Origin: Candidatus Micrarchaeaceae archaeon
GTDB lineage: Archaea > Micrarchaeota > Micrarchaeia > Micrarchaeales > CABMGC01
Direction of reading: 5' to 3'
Length of the DNA stretch: 9,037 bases
Assembly: GCA_027310795.1 (NCBI GenBank)
Contig: DAIDAD010000021.1
Span: 1 to 9,037 of the forward strand
The notes beneath the pieces are model-generated. The model searched no databases. It was given only the letters and a program-made list of their open reading frames with translations, and was not told where the DNA came from. The translations under genes were made by a program, and so were the position numbers. Numbering within the stretch: the first letter of the stretch is position 1; each line of letters opens with the position of its first letter. Positions 1-8,952 of the stretch are shown here, piece by piece.

Positions 1-117
1 AAGCAAATGTCTTATTTTATAGAAATGTGCCGCTTTCTTTAATTTGCATATTATCCTTTCAAAGATGGGCATTTTGCAGCCGCAGCAGGCTGTTTCCATG
101 AAACATTATTAAAAAAG

Positions 118-140
118 GCTTTCCTTTGAAGGCAGAAAGC
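118..140. repeat. Inverted repeat just upstream of the pilin-like gene promoter
   Basis: GCTTTC (118-123) and GAAAGC (135-140) form 6-bp inverted arms around a centre that contains the smaller inverted pair CCTT/AAGG (123-132). The right arm touches the TATA-like box and covers where a BRE would lie, so it could be an operator or only chance. The rest of 1-139 shows no gene I can support. A TATA-like string on the minus strand (about 15-25) might serve a divergent gene outside the window. Confidence 0.25.
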
Positions 141-148
141 TATTTAAA
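140..148 (+). promoter_or_regulatory. TATA-like box of the pilin-like gene
   Basis: CTATTTAAA lies after a purine-rich AGAAAG stretch that could act as a BRE. In archaea transcription usually starts about 25 bases downstream of the box centre, here near 170. That makes the ATG at 181 the first usable start, with a leader of about 10 nt, and argues against the ATGs at 148 and 157. Confidence 0.5.
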
Positions 149-180
149 TGTGGACGATGACATTGTTTCATAGTGGTTTG

Positions 181-585
181 ATGAATTGGACTACGATTAA
201 GTCAAAGTTGGCAGGCTCCGGTGTAGTGAACAGGATGATGCTTTTTGCCGTGTTGTTCGCTGGATCTGCAATGCTGTTCGCCCAGACTGGAACTGGAAGC
301 GGTTCCATATCGGCCGCTCTGTGTAGCGTCGTTTCAACAGTGCAGTTCGTCATAGGAATTGTTGCGATTCTACTCTTCGTGCTTGGCGGCGTGATATACG
401 CCATAGCGCACATGATGCCGAGCGCAGGGCAGTTCAGAGGAAGCCTGCAGGGCTGGTCTATGGGAATGATAGTCGGAGGCATAGTAGGGCTCATATTGGT
501 GATCCTGGCCCCTGGACTTATCAGCTTCATAATAACAGTTAGCGGTGCAGGAGGCTCTGTAAATCTATTCGCATGCGGCGGCTGA
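181..585 (+). CDS. VirB2/TrbC-like (CedA1-like) pilin candidate, small two-helix secreted membrane protein
   Basis: From the ATG at 181 the product is 134 aa. It has a positively charged start (K, K, R), a hydrophobic stretch and a likely signal-peptidase site after LFA, leaving a mature protein of about 100 aa starting QTGTG. The mature part holds two membrane helices (mature residues about 17-45 and 58-86) joined by a short loop with an Arg. The second helix is glycine-rich and ends in a VILAP-type segment. Signal peptide, about 100 aa and a two-helix hairpin with a short basic loop are the hallmarks of VirB2/TrbC pilins, and of archaeal CedA1/TedC relatives by architecture. Its only two mature cysteines lie before helix 1 and five residues from or nearer the C-terminus, so a disulfide is possible. 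In-frame ATGs at 148 and 157 would lengthen it but sit in or beside the TATA-like box. ATG 235 would lose the charged region. The family call is by architecture and motif resemblance only; another small membrane protein cannot be excluded. Confidence 0.6.
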   Translation: MNWTTIKSKLAGSGVVNRMMLFAVLFAGSAMLFAQTGTGSGSISAALCSVVSTVQFVIGIVAILLFVLGGVIYAIAHMMPSAGQFRGSLQGWSMGMIVGGIVGLILVILAPGLISFIITVSGAGGSVNLFACGG

Positions 586-620
586 TGCGGCAGAGGTTTC
601 TCCCTGTAAACGCATTAATA

Positions 621-659
621 AGGGCTGGGCTTCTGCCCAGCCTTCTTTTTTATTCTTAT
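621..659 (+). terminator. Hairpin plus T-tract terminator after the pilin-like gene
   Basis: A perfect 8-bp GC-rich stem (623-630 with 635-642) with a TTCT loop, extendable by a G-T and an A-T pair, is followed directly by a T-rich run (TTCTTTTTTATTCTTATT). It has the form of a bacterial intrinsic terminator. Archaeal terminators more often rely on the T-tract alone. It would separate the pilin-like gene from everything downstream. Confidence 0.75.
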
Positions 660-694
660 TGTTTTTAGAGCGAGGCTTTTGTAGTGCAGGGCGC

Positions 695-706
695 AAGCAT
701 ATGCTT
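695..706. promoter_or_regulatory. 12-bp perfect palindrome, candidate operator
   Basis: AAGCATATGCTT reads the same on both strands and overlaps the start of the TATA-like box at 704-712. A dimeric regulator bound here would cover the TFB/TBP site of the next gene. The position is suggestive, but no regulator gene is visible in the window. Confidence 0.35.
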
Positions 707-712
707 TAAATA
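704..712 (+). promoter_or_regulatory. TATA-like box of the six-helix membrane protein gene
   Basis: CTTTAAATA is centred about 46 bases before the GTG at 754. The predicted transcript start is near 735, giving a leader of about 19 nt. No clear Shine-Dalgarno sequence is present in that leader. Confidence 0.5.
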
Positions 713-753
713 GGTTTTTTGCCACATCTATTTGCGGTGTTTGTCTGGGTAGC

Positions 754-1476
754 GTGTTGTCAGATTCATTTGAGACCTATAAATCTAACATAAGGCTCGT
801 CGTCCTTTTTTCAATCCCTTTCATAATCGCATTCCTGATTCCACTGCTTGCGCCGCTTCCGACTTATGTCAGTGCAGGCGGAATATTCTTGAGAAGCGCA
901 AGCCTGTTTGCAAACGCTACGCCAATAGGGTTCAGCCTCATGGCGATTGCCGTATTCTTCTCTTTGTTATTCCTCAGCCTTGCATTTGTGTTGATAAGCC
1001 TCATAGTCAAGTCAAGGAGGACCCATGTGCGGATAGGGAAGATGGTGTTCAAGGAGATAGAGAAATACATAAGCAGGGTCTTCATCGTTCTTTTGATCTA
1101 TACTTTTGTACTGATAATAGCGAACGTTCTCGGATATTATTCAGGATACGAAGCGCTTGCCACAAGTGTTGTCGGGTTCTTCGGCTTCATAGCCATATTC
1201 TATGCGCCCAGCGCGATAGTAGTTGATGGAAAGGGAATTGCACGCGCTGTGAAGGAAAGCGTACAGCTTGTATTCAGGGAGCCGCAGTACTTCATAATAT
1301 GGCTTGTGGGCGCAATAATAGCAATATCAGCGGTTGATTTTGTCATAATAACATTGACAGGGTCTTTCATATCAAGTTACATCGTCCTTGTGGTAAATTC
1401 ATTGTTCATCCTCCCTTATTTCATAATCTTCCAGGCAGAGGCATACATGAAGAAGTTCAAGCTGCTGAAGCACTGA
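754..1476 (+). CDS. Six-helix integral membrane protein, DUF4013/YciC/GPDPase_memb-like
   Basis: The 240-aa product has no signal peptide and about six hydrophobic segments (residues about 14-34, 59-85, 108-127, 133-155, 179-202, 208-229), with a basic cytoplasmic-type loop at 86-107. The start SDSFETYKSNIRL and the segment at 151-178 (AP.AIV..GKG...AVKESVQLV) resemble the element before a helix in archaeal DUF4013 and bacterial YciC/GPDPase_memb proteins, where a conserved Gly and an A-x2-xS pair precede the next helix. The biochemical role of these proteins is not settled. It has no cysteine, unlike every other gene here, and does not share the central R-x5-R-x2-GG element of the downstream paralogues. 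It begins at GTG 754 (TTG 757 is possible) and has its own promoter between the pilin-like gene and the six-gene operon. A helper in membrane assembly of the apparatus is a guess from position. Confidence 0.8.
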   Translation: MLSDSFETYKSNIRLVVLFSIPFIIAFLIPLLAPLPTYVSAGGIFLRSASLFANATPIGFSLMAIAVFFSLLFLSLAFVLISLIVKSRRTHVRIGKMVFKEIEKYISRVFIVLLIYTFVLIIANVLGYYSGYEALATSVVGFFGFIAIFYAPSAIVVDGKGIARAVKESVQLVFREPQYFIIWLVGAIIAISAVDFVIITLTGSFISSYIVLVVNSLFILPYFIIFQAEAYMKKFKLLKH

Positions 1477-1522
1477 TTCTGACTACTGGATTAGCAGCTG
1501 CAATTCTGCCACACTCATATTC

Positions 1523-1531
1523 TTTATAAAT
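1523..1531 (+). promoter_or_regulatory. TATA-like box of the six-gene operon, leaderless transcript predicted
   Basis: TTTATAAAT is centred about 25 bases before the ATG at 1552, the spacing expected if transcription starts at or within a base or two of the start codon. This is the clearest promoter in the window and probably drives all genes to 8952. An 8-bp palindrome, GCAGCTGC (1494-1501), lies upstream; its relevance is unknown. Confidence 0.6.
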
Positions 1532-1551
1532 TATACCTGAACAACTATATC

Positions 1552-2829
1552 ATGCGACTGCAAGCCATGGTTCTGCTCTCTGCATCCATATTGGTTATTG
1601 GCCTTGCACACGCTTCGCTTTTCATAACGCCCCCGGGCTACTCGACTATAGTAACTAATCTCCCGTATCCCTGCTCCCCCGTGATAACTACCGGCGGTTC
1701 CATACCTTCTTCAGAATCAGGCGGCGCGCTGCTGACCTCGCTGCCTGCAAACGGCTATGCGATAGCCATAGCCGGGATTGCACTCGTGATATCGATAATG
1801 CTGGTGGCCATAATTTATATGATAAGCAAGCTCTTTCCGCATTTAGGGATACAGGGATGGATAAGCAATGAATACTGGGAAATCGCAAAGTCCGTGCTTC
1901 TTATCGTGATAGTATACGCGCTTCTGCTTTTCTTAAGCAATGTTGCGGTGAATGTTACGAACACTCCTGCATATGCATATTCAAGCAATACATACCTGAA
2001 CAACATAAACGGATTGCTCTATTCATCGGAAACCTATCTGCTTACTGTAGATTCCTACGTAGCTGCGGGCTGGTGCACCATCGGCAATGTGGAATTCGGC
2101 ACAGGATTGCTTTACAATTTTAATGTCAAGTACTACGTGCCCATACCTATTCCCATAATACTTGCAGGGCTGAAGTTCGGGGTTTCTTTCAATCCCCTGT
2201 CCCCGCCTTTGCTGATTGCAGGCAATGATGAGACAACCGGCCAGTTCTCATCTCTGATAATAGATATTGTACTCCTGCTGTATTACCCGCTCTCGATGGT
2301 TGTGCTCATCCTTATAGAGATTCTTCCCCTTCTCGTATGGGTGGGCCTTGGGTTCTTCATTCCTTTCGGCATCATATTCAGGGCGCTGCCGTTTCTAAGG
2401 GGCTTGGGAGGCACGTTCTTTGCGATAGGGATAGGGCTTGCCGTGATGCTTCCTGCGCTTCTGGTGGTCTTCAATTACCCAGTGACGCAGGTCATGCAAG
2501 GAATAGTGCCGATAGCGGCTGCCGCCCCGAGCAACACCTGCTCTTTCGGTGGCGCCCTGTTAAAATTTGCCTGCAATGCCTTTATGTCAATCATAGGAAA
2601 CGTTGTAAGGATCCGCACGTCCTTAGGATACGGCTTCTCCGAATTCAATGGCATTTACACTGTTTTAAATGCGCTTACCCCGTATATGGTATTCATGATT
2701 GCGCAGGAGATATTGTTCGTTCTTGACATGATAATAATATACGCGCTTCTTGACACTGTCGCCACGACTCTCGGAGGCAGCCTCAGCCCGTTGAAATCAG
2801 GGCTTGGGGGCAAGTTCAAGCTTATATAG
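1552..2829 (+). CDS. VirB6/TrbL/CedA-like polytopic membrane protein, paralogue 1 of 6
   Basis: This 425-aa protein opens with a signal peptide cleaved probably after LAHA (residue 21). A two-helix hairpin follows (about 70-92 and 113-130) whose loop carries NEYWEIAKS, the best match to the family's E-x2-E element. A long hydrophilic loop (131-233) contains Cys175 and an N-V-T sequon at 134. The core has a long hydrophobic block (234-276), then R277, R283, G286-G287 and a helix reaching Pro301. The last loop has Cys330 and Cys341, and the last helix (about 372-400) ends in an LGGS tail. All four cysteines lie in loops. This layout is that of VirB6/TrbL-type channel subunits of type IV secretion systems and of archaeal CedA. 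I infer that class from topology and gene context, not from a specific signature. Start: the ATG sits about 25 nt after the TATA-like box. It overlaps the next gene by one base. Confidence 0.6.
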   Translation: MRLQAMVLLSASILVIGLAHASLFITPPGYSTIVTNLPYPCSPVITTGGSIPSSESGGALLTSLPANGYAIAIAGIALVISIMLVAIIYMISKLFPHLGIQGWISNEYWEIAKSVLLIVIVYALLLFLSNVAVNVTNTPAYAYSSNTYLNNINGLLYSSETYLLTVDSYVAAGWCTIGNVEFGTGLLYNFNVKYYVPIPIPIILAGLKFGVSFNPLSPPLLIAGNDETTGQFSSLIIDIVLLLYYPLSMVVLILIEILPLLVWVGLGFFIPFGIIFRALPFLRGLGGTFFAIGIGLAVMLPALLVVFNYPVTQVMQGIVPIAAAAPSNTCSFGGALLKFACNAFMSIIGNVVRIRTSLGYGFSEFNGIYTVLNALTPYMVFMIAQEILFVLDMIIIYALLDTVATTLGGSLSPLKSGLGGKFKLI

Positions 2830-4016
2830 TGGTGCTTATGTTCTTCCTTCTCTCTGCACCTGGAACCGTATACCAGGCATGCGGCTTCGGCGGCGTTGAT
2901 GCAAACAACTGGGTGCAGATAAATGCGATTGTGCTGCTGATAGCGCTCTCCCTGGGAGGCGTGTTCTGGGCTTTAAGCAATATCATGTCGCCCAGGCAGG
3001 GGGAGAAGATGAAAGGATTGGTCAAGGCAGAGGTCTTCCAAGGAGTCATAGGGATAATGATAGTCGGGATACTGTTGTCCGTAGCCGTAGCCTGGTGCAA
3101 CATAGGCGCGTCGCTTACAAGCTCTGCGCTTTCCGGCATCGGCATTACAAATGTGCAGAACCCCATGCAGTTCTCAGAGACATACCTCCAGAACCTTGCT
3201 TTTGTAAAAGGGCTGTCGCTATTCGACACAGTATATTCAGAAACAGCGCTGCTGATGATCAACGGCATTGTCCTGCAGCATGTTGCAGCGCTGCTTGAAA
3301 AAATTCAAGAAGGATTTCTTCCCATACAGATAAGCTTTTCCAGCAGCGTCGCAAACCTCAGTGCGCTTTACGGCGGCGCTTTCTCGATTACAAGTTTTGT
3401 TGTTTTCGGCATAGTGTTCGGCATAATATTTATAATCTATCTGCTGCTGCCCCTGGTGTCTGCGACTGCCCTTACCGTGATAGTCCCGGTAGCGATAGCG
3501 ATGCGCATGATACCTTTTGTCGGCCCTAAGGTAAGGGAGATATCTGACCTGTTTTTATCCATTGCAATAGCAGCGTACTTCATATTCCCGCTGATGATAA
3601 TAATGAACAACCTGCTCCTCACTTACATGTATACCGCATGCAGCCCTATTGTGACCGTATGCAATCCTTATTCAAGCTACCTTGGCGCATACTCGCTGAA
3701 CAACATACCTGTCGGCACGCTCTTCACTACGAGCCCTACTTCCCTTGGAAGCGTATACTCGCTGCCAAAGGACTTCTTCGGAAATATCATTACAAGCAGC
3801 GGCGGGGTGCTTGCAACTGTAGTGCAGATACTCAAGAACATGGCGCTGCTTCCGGAAGTCTTCATAGGCATAGGGCAGGAAATTGCGGTTTTCACCTTTC
3901 AAGGAGTATTTCTGATCGGGCTTGACATACTAGTCACGGTAGCTTTTGCAAAGGCGCTGACTGAAGCGCTTAACTCCATATCCGGAGTGGTTTCAGGAGG
4001 CGCGTTCTGGGATTGA
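2829..4016 (+). CDS. VirB6/TrbL/CedA-like polytopic membrane protein, paralogue 2 of 6 (divergent core)
   Basis: The 395-aa reading starts at GTG 2829, sharing one base with the upstream TAG. GTG 2832 and ATG 2838 are alternatives, so the short hydrophobic N-terminus is uncertain. The hairpin spans about 29-50 and 69-89 with a basic loop (PRQGEKMKGLVKAE). LGGVFWALSNIM (42-53) closely resembles LGGVIYAIAHMM in the upstream pilin-like protein. The core element is altered: R226 is followed by a proline- and glycine-containing turn and K234/R236, the GG pair is missing, and R to Pro (254) is 28 residues rather than the 24 found in the other five. Cys18, Cys90 and the close pair Cys271/Cys278 lie in loops. 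The tail ends GGAFWD. It clearly belongs to the same family by order of elements, but is the most divergent member in the core. Confidence 0.55.
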   Translation: MVLMFFLLSAPGTVYQACGFGGVDANNWVQINAIVLLIALSLGGVFWALSNIMSPRQGEKMKGLVKAEVFQGVIGIMIVGILLSVAVAWCNIGASLTSSALSGIGITNVQNPMQFSETYLQNLAFVKGLSLFDTVYSETALLMINGIVLQHVAALLEKIQEGFLPIQISFSSSVANLSALYGGAFSITSFVVFGIVFGIIFIIYLLLPLVSATALTVIVPVAIAMRMIPFVGPKVREISDLFLSIAIAAYFIFPLMIIMNNLLLTYMYTACSPIVTVCNPYSSYLGAYSLNNIPVGTLFTTSPTSLGSVYSLPKDFFGNIITSSGGVLATVVQILKNMALLPEVFIGIGQEIAVFTFQGVFLIGLDILVTVAFAKALTEALNSISGVVSGGAFWD

Positions 4017-4017
4017 T

Positions 4018-5622
4018 ATGAAGAATATGGATTTACTGAAATATGTGCTCCTCTTTGCAGCAATCCTTATCCCTAATGCGCATGCGCAGAGCTTCATAAC
4101 CTCGGCAAGCACCTTCAATGGCTGGCTTACTGTGATTGTCTTGGGCATGGTGCTCAGCTCCATGCTCATAGGCATATACTACATGATGGGCTACCTGATG
4201 AACAACCAGAGGGCAAAGGCAGGGGCGAGGACAGAATTCGTCAAGCTCATAGCCGCTGTTATAGTGGTTGTGATTGTCATAGCAGTATTCAATTACTTCG
4301 GCTACTCGCTGCTCTTCACCAATGAGGTAAGCCAGGTGCAGATGACAAACATATGCAATCAGCTTTCAAACGCTAAAATAGATTTCATAAGCTCTAATAC
4401 CGTGCTTAACACGCCCCTCGGCGCAGTCTGCGCCAACATAATAGTGCCCTCGTCAAAGGTAGACCCGGTTACAAGGAACATTGATTATGGCCTTGGCGCG
4501 GTCTATGTCATAGAAGACAACCTAACAAACCAGTCGGCTGAATCGCTGAATGCGGTGTACATGCTTTCAACGATGCTCGCGTTCCTCAGGAATTATCAGA
4601 CACAGGATTCCGTATGCTTCCCTATAGAGTGCCTGATTCCTGATGTCCCGAGCATATTCCAGCTCACCGTAAGTGCATCGGTTTATGCAGGATACCAGGT
4701 CGGAGGCACTGTCCCAAGCGCGATATCCGTTGAAGCGCAGCTGATGTTCTACTTCTTTTTGTTCCAGTTGATATTGATAATACTCATGCTGTTGCTATGG
4801 CCATACCTTCTTGCTGCAGGCCTTATCTTTGAATCCACGATGTTCACGAGAAGGCTAGGTGGGCTTTTGATAGCGATAGTTGTTTCAAGCATGCTCGTAT
4901 ACCCGACCATTTACCTGTTCGAATACTCCTCCCTCAACAACATACAGAACCTGCAGCCTCTTGGCGCTTCGGCTGTTCCGGGCCTTGCGCTGTGCGGCGC
5001 GCCTGCAGGTGGCGCTGCGTTGGGGACAACGCCGCTTCTGAATGGCGATCCAAAAAGCGGAGTATATTGTTATACATCTGCGACGCAGCTTCCGCTGAGC
5101 TACATCTACAAAGTTACGCTGCCTGACCAGTTCTCAGACATGGTGCCGAACGCATACATCGATTATCCTGCGAATACAATGATACCCGCATGCCCTTCAA
5201 CGTCGTCTAACGGACTGTGCTTCATACCCAAAAGCCTGAACTTCTTCGTATTCCCGAAGATAGAGGACATACTGGAGTTGTATTTCACATGGCCTGCAGG
5301 AGGGAATCTCCTGAGTTTCGAGGCGCTGTTCATAATACCTGGCGTAAGCACAGGCATAGGGATAGTAAATGCGATCGCGTCGCTGACAAGCCTTCTTTCT
5401 GGCAATTTCATCGGTTCTTTCCCTTCATTCGTATATTACTACGTTGATCCTTCGCACACCATCGCTGCGCTGCTTGCACTGATAAACGTATATGCGATAG
5501 ACGCGGTTGTCGGCTTCATACTCCCTATCTTCAATATACTGATATTGCTATCGTCTATAATAGAGATATCGAAGCTGCTGGGAGGCGAGGGAAGCATTCT
5601 GGGGCTTGAAAAATTCATATAG
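4018..5622 (+). CDS. VirB6/TrbL/CedA-like polytopic membrane protein with enlarged loops, paralogue 3 of 6
   Basis: At 534 aa this is the longest member. A signal peptide ends at AHA (residue 23). The hairpin lies at about 36-60 and 77-99 with a basic loop (NNQRAKAGARTE). The first long loop (100-239) has Cys113, 138, 200 and 205 and two adjacent N-x-S/T sequons at 168-173. The core block (240-270) is followed by a variant motif: the family Arg is Glu272, but R278, G281-G282 and Pro296 keep the exact spacing. The second loop is expanded to about 130-175 residues (from 303) with Cys326, 351, 392 and 401, glycine- and proline-rich stretches and aromatic residues. The last hydrophobic region (about 480-515) ends in LLGGEGS. 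It starts one base after the previous stop. The enlarged loops probably form a folded exterior domain. Confidence 0.6.
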   Translation: MKNMDLLKYVLLFAAILIPNAHAQSFITSASTFNGWLTVIVLGMVLSSMLIGIYYMMGYLMNNQRAKAGARTEFVKLIAAVIVVVIVIAVFNYFGYSLLFTNEVSQVQMTNICNQLSNAKIDFISSNTVLNTPLGAVCANIIVPSSKVDPVTRNIDYGLGAVYVIEDNLTNQSAESLNAVYMLSTMLAFLRNYQTQDSVCFPIECLIPDVPSIFQLTVSASVYAGYQVGGTVPSAISVEAQLMFYFFLFQLILIILMLLLWPYLLAAGLIFESTMFTRRLGGLLIAIVVSSMLVYPTIYLFEYSSLNNIQNLQPLGASAVPGLALCGAPAGGAALGTTPLLNGDPKSGVYCYTSATQLPLSYIYKVTLPDQFSDMVPNAYIDYPANTMIPACPSTSSNGLCFIPKSLNFFVFPKIEDILELYFTWPAGGNLLSFEALFIIPGVSTGIGIVNAIASLTSLLSGNFIGSFPSFVYYYVDPSHTIAALLALINVYAIDAVVGFILPIFNILILLSSIIEISKLLGGEGSILGLEKFI

Positions 5623-5629
5623 TGTTTTT

Positions 5630-6766
5630 ATGAAGAGATTTATGACATTTGCCGTGCTTGCTCTGCTCCTGTTGCCAGTGCTGCAGGCTGACAGCCCGCC
5701 TTCGGGCCAGAGTTTTCTCAGCTGCTCTGCTCTCTTCTCAAACAGCGTAAACGGCAAGCCGCTTGTAAGCCCTGCAATAGCGGCTTACTCCTCTTATTCA
5801 GGATTAGTATCCACCGCACTGCTCGTAGTTGCCATGATGTTCATAGTCGTGGGGCTGATTTATGGATTGGGAATCGCATTCCGCTGGGATATGCTGAAGA
5901 ATTTTGCCAAGACCGAATACCTCGAAGGGTTTGTCAGCATACTCATAATAGTGTTTGTAGCCGGAGGCATAGCTGCGTTCAGCGGAGCCTTGGGCTTCAT
6001 AGGCGGACTGTTCAGCGTCGGTACGGGGACTACGATTCCCGGAAGCTTCCAGACCCTGTACGGCTCCTTATGCACCAACATCTTCAATAAAATGATAATA
6101 CCCGGAGTGCTTGTATACGTCTGGATATTCATCAACAAGCTGTTCTTTTCCATAATAACAGCCCTGACGATAGACCTGGCTCCCGGTGGTTTTGGGGTTA
6201 CGCTGCAGCCCCTGTTTGGCTTTGGCTTGGTGAACCAGCTGTTGTGGATCGAGGATGGCTTGGCTACCTTCATGCTCGCAGCCGGAGGCATGCTGATAGT
6301 GATGCTCTTCGTGATATATTACCTGTTCCCGATATTCCTATTCTTAGGAATAGCGCTAAGGACCTTCCCGTGGACGAGGGCGGCAGGCGGCGCGTTCATC
6401 GCCCTTTTCATAGCGTTTTACATCTTCTTCCCCGCAATAATGTATCAATTTACAGTGTCGTATTCATCAACAACAAACCCCAGCAGCAGCGCGCTTGGGT
6501 TATGCAGCAGCAACTCATGCCCCACCGGCATAGGAATAGCCCTTGGTTCTCTAAAAGCATACCTGGGCGTGCTCACTCTTGATGTCGGCTATACCGCATA
6601 CACGAACCTTCTGTACTTTTCCGAAATCTTCCTATACCTCGGGATTAATCTGCTTGGACTATTGATCTCGCTCCTGATATCATACGAGCTTGTGGAGACT
6701 TTTGGAAGGCTGCTCGGCGCGCCATCTGTAAAAGGGAGAGGCCTGTTTAAAAAGATATTTAAATAA
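5630..6766 (+). CDS. VirB6/TrbL/CedA-like polytopic membrane protein, paralogue 4 of 6
   Basis: I start this at ATG 5630, seven bases after the previous stop, because it gives a textbook signal peptide (MKRF, a Leu-rich core, cleavage after LQA). The reading frame extends to a TTG at 5606 inside the previous gene, but those eight extra residues are unneeded. The 378-aa product has a hairpin (58-82, 100-126) with FRWDMLKNFAKTEYLEGF between the helices, carrying E96 and E99. It has a loop with Cys148, a hydrophobic block ending at 243, then R244, T249-R250, G253-G254 and Pro268: the clearest form of the family core. The next loop holds Cys292 and Cys297, five apart. The last helix (about 325-352) leads to a short basic tail (KGRGLFKKIFK), which by the positive-inside rule should be cytoplasmic. 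Confidence 0.6.
   Translation: MKRFMTFAVLALLLLPVLQADSPPSGQSFLSCSALFSNSVNGKPLVSPAIAAYSSYSGLVSTALLVVAMMFIVVGLIYGLGIAFRWDMLKNFAKTEYLEGFVSILIIVFVAGGIAAFSGALGFIGGLFSVGTGTTIPGSFQTLYGSLCTNIFNKMIIPGVLVYVWIFINKLFFSIITALTIDLAPGGFGVTLQPLFGFGLVNQLLWIEDGLATFMLAAGGMLIVMLFVIYYLFPIFLFLGIALRTFPWTRAAGGAFIALFIAFYIFFPAIMYQFTVSYSSTTNPSSSALGLCSSNSCPTGIGIALGSLKAYLGVLTLDVGYTAYTNLLYFSEIFLYLGINLLGLLISLLISYELVETFGRLLGAPSVKGRGLFKKIFK
6757..6764 (+). promoter_or_regulatory. Possible internal TATA-like box at a gene junction
   Basis: ATTTAAAT overlaps the end of paralogue 4. A transcript from it would start near 6786, close to the in-frame ATGs at 6784 and 6790 of the next gene. The sequence also simply encodes the basic Lys-Ile-Phe-Lys tail, so it may be coincidental. 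Confidence 0.2.
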
Positions 6767-6771
6767 AAATA

Positions 6772-7863
6772 ATGATGTACGTTATGAATATGCTTCCATT
6801 AAATTTCTCCGGGTTCCTGCTCTCTGCAGCAGCTTGCACGCTTACCAATATCTTCTCTTCGCCATATACCTACTGGTTCCCGATAGTTGTGATTGCAGCG
6901 CTTGCAGTCATAATGGTGCTCATACTCATTGCCGTGATGGCGCCATTGATCGGCAGGACGAACCTGATAACATGGGCGAGGATAAAGGCCTATGAAGAGG
7001 TTGCGACCGTCCTCCTGGCAATAATATTCCTCAGCTTTTCATCAGTCATATGCGCGATAAACCCCGTAGGGGCTCTCGGCTCAATCGGCCTTGTCCCTTC
7101 GGCATGCCCAGGTTCTGGAGGCACCCCTGTAAATAATTTATGGGGATTGTCAGTCTGCAACATGTACATATTCAACCAGCATGTAACTGATGTGCTGCTC
7201 GGCGTTTACTGGATTAGCTTTATCGCAGACTTTACCCCCACGCTCTCTGCAGAAGCAACTTTCGGCGGGCTGGGGATATCATTCAGCGGTGTCAGCTTCT
7301 CGACGAATCCAAATACCATATACCTCTATCCGTTCTTCGTACTGCTGTTTGGCGAGATCATGCTCTCGCTGCTGCAGGTGGTCCTGCTCTCTTCGTCTGC
7401 ACTGCTGTTCTCCTTCCTCATAGGCATAGGGCTGATTGCAAGGGCCTTTGGGATAACGAGGACTTTTGGAAATGCAATGATAGCCCTTGGCATAGGGATA
7501 GGGTTCATATATCCGCTGCTGGTGAGCGTGACTTATGGTTTTGTAAATACGACTTTCAGCAACATCCTCTCGGCGCTGGGAACATCCGCCACGTATCTGC
7601 TGCAGGATTTAGGCTTCTCGGCGCTGCTCACCTTCCTGACCGGCTTGTTCTCTTCTAGCACAGTTGTCTCTTTTGGAACCGGGGTGGTTGCGCAGGTATG
7701 GAACCTATTAGGGCTGACTGTTCTTCTTGCATCGATGGTCGGCGTAGGGCTTATATTCATACCATTGCTGAATTTTGTCATATTAGATGCATTTGTCGTT
7801 GATTTCTCAAGCTCGCTCGGGCAGGGAATGTCGTTTATGGAGTTAATAACTGGACTGGTATAA
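6772..7863 (+). CDS. VirB6/TrbL/CedA-like polytopic membrane protein, paralogue 5 of 6
   Basis: The longest form is 363 aa from the ATG at 6772; ATGs at 6775, 6784 and 6790 are also in frame and the true start is unsure. The N-terminus is hydrophobic but a weaker signal peptide than in its neighbours. The hairpin (about 36-59, 77-96) has GRTNLITWARIKAYEE in its loop. A loop with Cys112 and Cys129 follows; Cys22 and Cys94 flank the hairpin. The core has R224, T229-R230, G233 (N234 in place of the second Gly) and Pro248, with exact family spacing. Later segments are glycine/serine-rich, and the last helix (about 310-345) runs into SSSLGQGMSF, the family's small-residue tail. An N-T-T sequon is at 259. 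It ends directly against the next start codon. Confidence 0.55.
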   Translation: MMYVMNMLPLNFSGFLLSAAACTLTNIFSSPYTYWFPIVVIAALAVIMVLILIAVMAPLIGRTNLITWARIKAYEEVATVLLAIIFLSFSSVICAINPVGALGSIGLVPSACPGSGGTPVNNLWGLSVCNMYIFNQHVTDVLLGVYWISFIADFTPTLSAEATFGGLGISFSGVSFSTNPNTIYLYPFFVLLFGEIMLSLLQVVLLSSSALLFSFLIGIGLIARAFGITRTFGNAMIALGIGIGFIYPLLVSVTYGFVNTTFSNILSALGTSATYLLQDLGFSALLTFLTGLFSSSTVVSFGTGVVAQVWNLLGLTVLLASMVGVGLIFIPLLNFVILDAFVVDFSSSLGQGMSFMELITGLV

Positions 7864-8952
7864 ATGAAATATTATCTGGTTTTGGTTGCTGTTTTCGGCT
7901 TCTTTACAGCCATGGGCATAAGCCATGCTTCTTCTTTTGTAACCCAGTACTGCTCTAGCACCGGACAGGTGCAGATTGTTGCCCCATGGTACTGCAGCGA
8001 CATAAACATTCAGGCCCAGAATGTCTGGAGCCAGTGGGAGCCGCTTGCGCTGATAGTGGCGTTCCTGTCGTTTCTGCTGGGCGCAGTCATATTCATGGCA
8101 GGCATAGTCTCAAAGAGCTCAAGGATAAGAAACTTCGGCGTGGGGGAGATATATGAATCGATAGCTTCGATCCTCATAGTCGTGGCTTTCCTTTTCATAG
8201 CGGCTACGCTGTTTGGGCTCCTGCCCGGCGTAGTTACGGGACCGATAAACCCTTACGATACTTCGCTTACTTATATAGCAAATACCATAAACACCACAAG
8301 TTCATTGGCTTCTAGGTTATTCATAATCGCCTCGTTAGACAGGTATTATGCAAGCATAACCACACAAATCTGCTTCCTTAATACATTAGTTTCTGTCTGC
8401 ACGCCTGAAGGTTTCAGGCCTTTCGCATTTACTATATTGCTGTGGTACTGGCCTGCATGGGCGCTGATGCAGTTCATGCTTGATGCGCTTTTTACGCTTT
8501 ATGTGCAGTATTACTTCATACTCTTCTTCCTTTACGCAGGCATGCCCGTATTCTTGATACCTGGAGTGATTCTTAGGGCATTCCTCCCTACAAGAGGTGT
8601 TGGTGGCATGATGATTGCAATAGCGATAGGCTTCTTCCTGGTAATGCCCGTGCTTTTCTCAATCGCATACTATTTCACTTCCACAAGCGCAATAAAAGGA
8701 TTGTCAAATACATACGCTACTCTAACACAGTACGGAGCTGGAACAGGGGCGCAGGCTGGTACATTGTCGCCGTATTCGCCGCTGGTCCTTGCCATTACAA
8801 ATGCGAACAGCGTGATGAACGGCTTCTGGCTCTCAATATTATTCTTCCCTGCACTTATCCTTGCAATCGCATATTCGGTAGTGATAAACTTAGCCCTGAT
8901 TATAGGGGGAACGGCAAAAGCTGGATCTACGGCCTTTATGAGGCTTGTTTAG
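7864..8952 (+). CDS. VirB6/TrbL/CedA-like polytopic membrane protein, paralogue 6 of 6
   Basis: The ATG follows the previous TAA with no gap (TAAATG), so the two are probably translationally coupled. The 362-aa product has a signal peptide (cleavage near SHA, residue 22), then Cys30 and Cys44 in the exposed N-terminal segment. A hairpin follows (60-82, 99-119) with a basic loop (KSSRIRNF) and EIYESIASIL, a close match to EYLEGFVSIL of paralogue 4. The next loop has an N-T-T sequon at 143 and Cys170/Cys179. The core shows R238, T243-R244, G247-G248 and Pro262, exactly as in paralogue 4. The last helix (about 318-347) ends in IIGGTAKAGS. This is the last gene of the operon. Confidence 0.6.
   Translation: MKYYLVLVAVFGFFTAMGISHASSFVTQYCSSTGQVQIVAPWYCSDINIQAQNVWSQWEPLALIVAFLSFLLGAVIFMAGIVSKSSRIRNFGVGEIYESIASILIVVAFLFIAATLFGLLPGVVTGPINPYDTSLTYIANTINTTSSLASRLFIIASLDRYYASITTQICFLNTLVSVCTPEGFRPFAFTILLWYWPAWALMQFMLDALFTLYVQYYFILFFLYAGMPVFLIPGVILRAFLPTRGVGGMMIAIAIGFFLVMPVLFSIAYYFTSTSAIKGLSNTYATLTQYGAGTGAQAGTLSPYSPLVLAITNANSVMNGFWLSILFFPALILAIAYSVVINLALIIGGTAKAGSTAFMRLV

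Follow-up and report, generated by a model that had tools for sequence, protein, structure and literature searches.

The six adjacent genes A to F of a Candidatus Micrarchaeaceae archaeon (contig DAIDAD010000021.1) encode divergent membrane proteins that, on balance, probably assemble one each into a single hetero-hexameric VirB6/CedA-like channel that would be powered by a HerA/VirB4-like ATPase encoded downstream in close relatives. The stretch analysed here (the window, 9,037 bases) is the whole of this contig, C31 in our numbering, from a 603-kb source genome of 117 contigs that is 73% complete. According to the open reading frame (ORF) listing, eight + strand genes, P0, Y0 and A–F, occupy the whole window. 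The array genes are tightly spaced, with overlaps or gaps of a few bases: base 2829 is common to A and B, E and F abut, and C and D overlap by 17 bases if D begins at TTG.

Judged by sequence comparison, the paralogy of A–F is beyond chance. Profile–profile alignment of the six orthologue groups gave E ≤ 1.8e-6 in 13 of 15 pairs, the weak ones being B–C (0.0013) and B–F (0.0068), and D matched F directly in BLASTP (E = 1.9e-10), in agreement with an earlier note on this DNA that had placed six tandem paralogues at exactly 1552–8952. Proteins B to F share 15–24% identity with A, and B is the most divergent of the six. The same note had described a common layout of elements, and the hydropathy scan bears this out, with 6–8 predicted transmembrane (TM) segments in each protein in the same arrangement. 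It had also assigned an R-x5-R-x2-GG core to all six; the common core, P...R-x5-R-x2-GG...P, is found in its strict form in A, D and F, whereas B, C and E carry degenerate versions. Across the 486 proteins of 81 six-gene arrays, its basic pair is nevertheless retained at all positions, with the first Arg in 467 (lowest at position 3 of families f1 and f2, 37 of 49) and the second Arg/Lys in 483. Neither Pfam nor NCBIfam gave a useful match for A–F, and Rfam, run on the window, likewise returned nothing useful for them. Conserved Cys residues, possibly forming disulfides, lie outside the predicted TM segments of A–F; C30 and C44 of F, for example, are invariant in 85 rows.

An ordered set of six

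A search with F yielded 12 loci, nine of them holding A-B-C-D-E-F complete and in order and the other three cut by contig ends; 11 are in records named Candidatus Micrarchaeota and the twelfth in a metagenome-assembled genome labelled 'bacterium'. F-type matches at E ≤ 1e-5 were present in 255 of 295 genomes of the phylum, and F-type matches in 88 of 96 genomes with a completeness of 90% or more and a contamination of 5% or less; beyond families f1, f2 and f11, however, they are weak and indicate membership of the protein family, not F itself. We then counted genes mechanically at 95 loci, those of f1 and f2 being anchored on gene F alone and arrays elsewhere mostly picked where matches or clusters appeared. 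Seventy-five arrays, from 66 genomes and 15 families, were bounded (at least 800 bp on both sides of the array), and 74 of these contained exactly six full-length genes (at least 260 aa, stop to stop). The remaining one, L108, counts seven, with gene 3 as two ORFs; because these cover separate stretches of the model (positions 23–250 and 291–349), six is the likely number there too. The other 20 loci are unbounded and outside this figure; seven of them show six genes, including the array of the window, which is unbounded because the contig ends 85 bases after F. Loci L003–L005, L007–L012 and L014 recur among the G genomes and were counted once. Among the alignments, A6 contains 84 of 94 proteins, A7 and A10 contain 59 and 74 of the 120 listed, and A9 contains 33 of the 120 listed. 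The contigs that bear arrays are large and chromosomal, up to 1.18 Mb, and neither F nor S (a one-copy relative of A–F, see below) had a tblastn match in 72,556 plasmid records. The conservation of gene order in related archaeal genomes, which the earlier note had proposed as a check, is evident both in the nine complete loci and in the count of six.

Each position of the array appears to have an identity of its own. When position profiles were compared between groups of families, the best partner was the same position in six of six cases for f1/f2 versus f11, in six of six for f11 versus the rest and in five of six for f1/f2 versus the rest, where position 4 scored 174 against 180 for the best partner, or 17 of 18 overall. 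Of 246 proteins placed on a tree of 41 arrays, 242 have a protein of the same position as their nearest neighbour from another family, a figure raised by the closeness of f1 and f2.

The set also appears to have been copied as a block. The six near-complete genomes searched in families f3, f5, f6 and f7 carry two arrays of six each, and at least five of these six also hold a separate single gene, among the matches listed; two arrays occur in several further families as well. In a concatenated-core tree of 40 arrays, which includes 10 of the 11 two-array genomes, every one of these 10 has its arrays split between two clades (supports 100 and 80), and the f11 arrays lie beside the two duplicate clades when the tree is rooted, by choice, on f1/f2. 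The simplest reading of these sequences is one duplication of the whole six-gene set, after which both copies would have kept all six. Fixed number, fixed order, block duplication and the kept basic pair together suggest that selection acts on the set as a unit, as an obligate one-of-each complex would explain.

Some loci depart from the common picture in other ways. L153 has, beside a complete array, a 113-aa fragment of the F C terminus at 2916 on the + strand, opposite to the array and perhaps left over from a duplication. In one f1 genome, F-type genes lie on three contigs (L145, L075 and contig C18 of G066), perhaps reflecting more than one array or mixed strains. The records of L011 and proteins P0027 and P0104, labelled 'bacterium' or 'Marsarchaeota', encode such a system, and their labels may be wrong.

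Pilin-like, ATPase and neighbouring genes

P0 gives the array a pilin-like neighbour. The profile of the channel family (V6) matches P0 (E = 3.5e-5, model positions 16–99), and when the P0 family was aligned with the 32-row V6 profile, its resemblance to the first hairpin reached an hhalign E of 2.3e-6, compared with at least 0.046 for the controls Y0, N1, N2 and bacterial VirB6; among single-group profiles the best value was 1.3e-6, for position 2 of f1/f2, and the worst 0.059, for S. Among 126 short membrane ORFs scanned, V6 matched 18 at E ≤ 1e-3, comprising 16 of the 44 P0-family proteins scanned and two truncated V6 genes. Beltran et al. describe a pilin that resembles the N-terminal hairpin of the channel as a signature of the pairs CedA1/CedA and VirB2/VirB6. 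Three P0-like pilin genes occur in a row at L178:292-1551, before N and ATPase genes, and at L074:15020-16283, before an array.

The same genome contains a one-copy counterpart. On contig C23 (L024), a pilin-like gene, one V6-like gene (S), an N-like gene and an ATPase gene stand in a row, and similar one-copy clusters exist in other genomes. S is related to all six of A–F (profile probability 93–99) and closest to F (E = 8e-25 against the F alignment of 85 rows). Such a cluster beside the six-gene set in one genome offers a natural starting point for the six. Beyond the cluster, C23 has more genes, including that of a second HerA-like ATPase of 742 aa, which might be a coupling ATPase; with this protein the system spans 82-7295.

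Downstream of the array in relatives lie the putative motor genes. Of 17 stretches of f1, f2 and f11, 16 encode N1 and N2, a pair of homologous 2-TM proteins each about 275 aa long, on the 3′ side of the array, and 14 encode an ATPase of 500 aa there. Two of the three stretches without the ATPase end inside N2; the third, L063 (from G017), has a complete six-gene array followed by 10 kb with neither 2-TM genes nor ATPase. Among the nine complete loci found with F, seven include the ATPase, and L011 and L012 have N genes and no ATPase in the stretch. In the source genome, N1, N2 and the ATPase are on contig C70, whose end cuts the ATPase. The ATPase matches the HerA central domain (DUF87), AAA_10 and P-loop_TraG, all above cut-offs, as well as HerA and VirB4-like chains in the PDB, where sequence searches with F and with the 2-TM family gave nothing meaningful. 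The genes that usually follow it encode a small 2-TM protein, a protein with coiled coils and one of 800 aa with TM segments. Outside f1, f2 and f11, the ATPase was found at E ≤ 1e-40 in 52 of 60 chosen genomes; 17 ATPase loci there that are not of the one-copy kind have one N gene (15 loci) or two (two loci), and no array gene within their stretches.

At L177:5492-7843 (+), the 2-TM/N-type region and the HerA-like ATPase, elsewhere two adjacent genes, form a single 783-aa ORF. This fusion supports a role for N as the N-terminal partner of the ATPase, on the pattern of CedB or VirB4. Gene order and the fused ORF are the grounds for proposing that the 2-TM proteins correspond to VirB4 N-terminal domains; no sequence match of N to that domain was found, and none was specifically sought.

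Giant proteins of 1400–2200 aa with 1–4 predicted TM segments adjoin several arrays (L012:14445-21002 (+), L099:11939-17542, L101:13722-17960, L104:12673-17595, L107:13219-18699 and L108:15365-19888). The L012 protein has a weak lysozyme-like SLT_3 match just below its cut-off, and the five others have no Pfam match at E ≤ 0.001. Such membrane-anchored proteins beside many arrays, together with the lysozyme-like match, hint at contact with other cells. On the 5′ side, several relatives in f1 and f2 have Y0 next to the array, and those in f11 have it a few kb upstream. The features of the window are collected in Table 1; the protein at position 3 exceeds 1100 aa in some relatives' arrays.

Table 1 Genes, core motifs and candidate signals in the 9,037-base window
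Feature	Position	Strand	Basis and remarks
P0, 145-aa pilin-like protein	148..585	+	ORF; VirB2/CedA1-like through likeness to first hairpin of A–F
Terminator-like hairpin and T run, 3′ of P0	621..644	+	Fits the consensus; 8 sites of this kind observed, 9.7 expected from shuffles
Y0, 240-aa six-TM protein	754..1476	+	ORF, hydropathy, relatives' loci
Candidate TATA-box-like TTTATAAAT, 5′ of gene A	1523..1531	+	By eye
Gene A, array position 1	1552..2829	+	ORF, position profiles
Core motif of A, R-x5-R-x2-GG	2380..2412	+	Strict
Gene B, array position 2	2829..4016	+	ORF, position profiles; weakest link of the six
Core motif of B	3504..3548	+	Degenerate; longer spacing, without GG
Gene C, array position 3	4018..5622	+	ORF, position profiles; longest of the six in the window
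Core motif of C	4831..4863	+	Degenerate; Glu replaces first Arg
Gene D, array position 4	5606..6766	+	ORF, position profiles; TTG start, in-frame ATG at 5630
Core motif of D, R-x5-R-x2-GG	6359..6391	+	Strict
Gene E, array position 5	6772..7863	+	ORF, position profiles
Core motif of E	7441..7473	+	Degenerate; GN instead of GG
Gene F, array position 6	7864..8952	+	ORF, position profiles
Core motif of F, R-x5-R-x2-GG	8575..8607	+	Strict

Relation to VirB6 and to known transfer systems

Several results weigh against a VirB6-type channel with positions fixed of old. A search of the genome for PF04610 (VirB6/TrbL) found nothing at E ≤ 0.1, and a 34-row R388-type VirB6 profile compared with A–F and with the F85, S60 and V6-32 alignments gave E values of 0.26–0.89, that is, no match. 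The 246-protein tree joins positions 1, 3, 4 and 6 of f1/f2 (support 90) apart from positions 1, 3 and 6 elsewhere, places S beside position 4 of the other families and contains a divergent array, L122, that departs from the position clades. L122, the second array of an f12 genome, has six genes with low scores and a position pattern unlike that of other arrays, and was excluded from the position-profile comparison and the concatenated-core tree. For position identity we take the profile comparison to be the more sensitive guide of the two.

Further tests of the VirB6 class were also negative. The families listed at E ≤ 10 for 32 diverse V6 proteins do not include PF04610, and neither do those listed (the best 25 of 28) for 60 S proteins, two sets that share one protein; TrwI alone did not match the V6 profiles. 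VirB6 is reported to have a conserved Trp in its central cytoplasmic loop (PMC7648143); no Trp occurs in columns conserved at 90% or more of the 32-row alignment, and by position a core Trp is seen only at position 4 of f1/f2. Since PF04610, the VirB6 profile and the conserved Trp all failed, we do not file A–F as members of VirB6/TrbL, and the VirB6 class that the earlier note had given them is not established. The structural comparison it had proposed was equivocal: Foldseek with models of F and S gave no match at E ≤ 0.001, and R388 VirB6 (7o3v, 8rt9, 8rtd) scored in the middle range and was the longest-aligned among the matches listed. The likeness of these modelled folds to bacterial VirB6 is only suggestive. 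R388 VirB6 (TrwI) forms a homopentamer (PMC9259494), in contrast to the hetero-oligomer proposed for A–F.

The closest archaeal parallels are Ced of Sulfolobales and Ted of Thermoproteales, DNA-exchange systems with a CedA/TedA channel, a CedA1/TedC pilin and a CedB/TedB ATPase (PMC9905601, PMC11868833); in Saccharolobus, CedE is a CedA paralogue proposed to form a hetero-oligomer with CedA (PMC11868833). As in Ced/Ted, the array pairs polytopic channel genes with a nearby pilin-like gene whose product resembles the channel's N-terminal hairpin and with a HerA/VirB4-like ATPase, a likeness of gene content and pilin hairpin. A setting in large chromosomal contigs, without plasmid matches, is a further point in common. 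Channels of the Ced/Ted type have six or seven TM segments, close to the 6–8 predicted for A–F. Unlike Ced/Ted, the array has six fixed paralogues instead of one or two, and its ATPase is separate from one or two 2-TM proteins.

Several VirB6 paralogues are also known in Rickettsiales, four in Anaplasmataceae and five in Rickettsiaceae, in tandem with virB3-virB4 and in some copies with large surface-exposed extensions (PMC7648143). Tandem copies in a kept order, an adjoining VirB4 ATPase and a host-dependent cell are common to both, whereas the Rickettsiales genes are bacterial, recognisable as TrbL/VirB6 and four or five in number, not six; whole-array duplication does not figure in the available part of that account. 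Nanohaloarchaea, another DPANN lineage, have the SPEARE proteins, giant surface proteins with a VirB4/TraG-like ATPase proposed for host contact (PMC10266531). There, as at the array loci, giant surface proteins accompany VirB4-like ATPases; in SPEARE, however, the ATPase domain is inside the giant protein, and the available part of the account has no six-channel array. Titles and abstract openings on type IV secretion systems (T4SS) of Micrarchaeota/DPANN and on VirB6/CedA paralogues, among the matches listed, describe no such array. Judging by these searches, the novelty lies in an ordered archaeal set that stays at six genes in 15 families and has been duplicated whole. To our knowledge, there is no settled answer to why Rickettsiales and Saccharolobus carry several VirB6/CedA copies.

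Alternative readings and a proposed mechanism

The predicted hetero-hexameric ring is likely on the comparative evidence, and A–F would most likely work like the VirB6/CedA channel of a T4SS-like machine. A hetero-oligomer, one of two options raised in the earlier note, is the better supported as a predicted complex, given six genes in 74 of 75 bounded arrays and their copying as a block. The best-surviving alternative, which we consider unlikely, is that the six are hetero-oligomeric T4SS-like subunits other than a one-each hexamer, some forming the ring and others acting as gates, receptors or pilus-assembly factors. The pentameric R388 VirB6 (PMC9259494), the unequal sizes of the positions, with position 3 above 1100 aa in some arrays, and the divergence of B would fit such roles, but all six positions have the same core, nearly all proteins keep the basic pair, and the 81 six-gene arrays all hold six full-length genes.

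Less probable still is a new archaeal membrane complex unrelated to VirB6/CedA with a HerA-family ATPase, serving, for example, envelope assembly or adhesin export. The missing sequence match to VirB6, the middling fold match and the giant membrane-anchored proteins by many arrays, five of them without a Pfam domain, are consistent with it; the resemblance of P0 to the first hairpin argues against it, as does the one-copy locus, where pilin, channel, N and ATPase genes, of the kinds that Ced/Ted loci are reported to contain, lie side by side. That the six form separate homo-oligomeric channels for different substrates with one common ATPase is very improbable, for although paralogues with 15–24% identity to A are divergent enough, independent channels would be expected to come and go singly, whereas the array has a fixed number and order of genes, was duplicated with all six together and is followed by one ATPase gene in 14 of 17 loci; array copying as a unit and the one ATPase gene likewise disfavour the several machines of different specificity that the earlier note had offered as its other option.

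For the hetero-hexameric channel that we favour, we propose a homo-oligomeric ancestor, like the one-copy kind, whose gene was amplified until each ring position had one of its own. The ring would then fail if any one subunit were lost, and this would account for a set that is either retained or copied in its entirety. The P0 pilin is predicted to dock on or extend the ring, the 2-TM proteins may be the membrane-anchored N-terminal half of a split VirB4/CedB, the giant membrane-anchored proteins may contact a partner cell, and DNA or protein would pass through the channel between cells. More tentatively, the six may be permanently distinct paralogues of VirB6/CedA type, one per ring position, fixed before the families diverged and duplicated only whole, with a relative of the founding one-copy machine in the same cells. 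The idea of a hetero-ring becomes directly testable through a set of six that is ordered, block-duplicated and accompanied in the genome by a one-copy relative, and the array is a candidate cell-to-cell transfer machine of host-dependent DPANN archaea.

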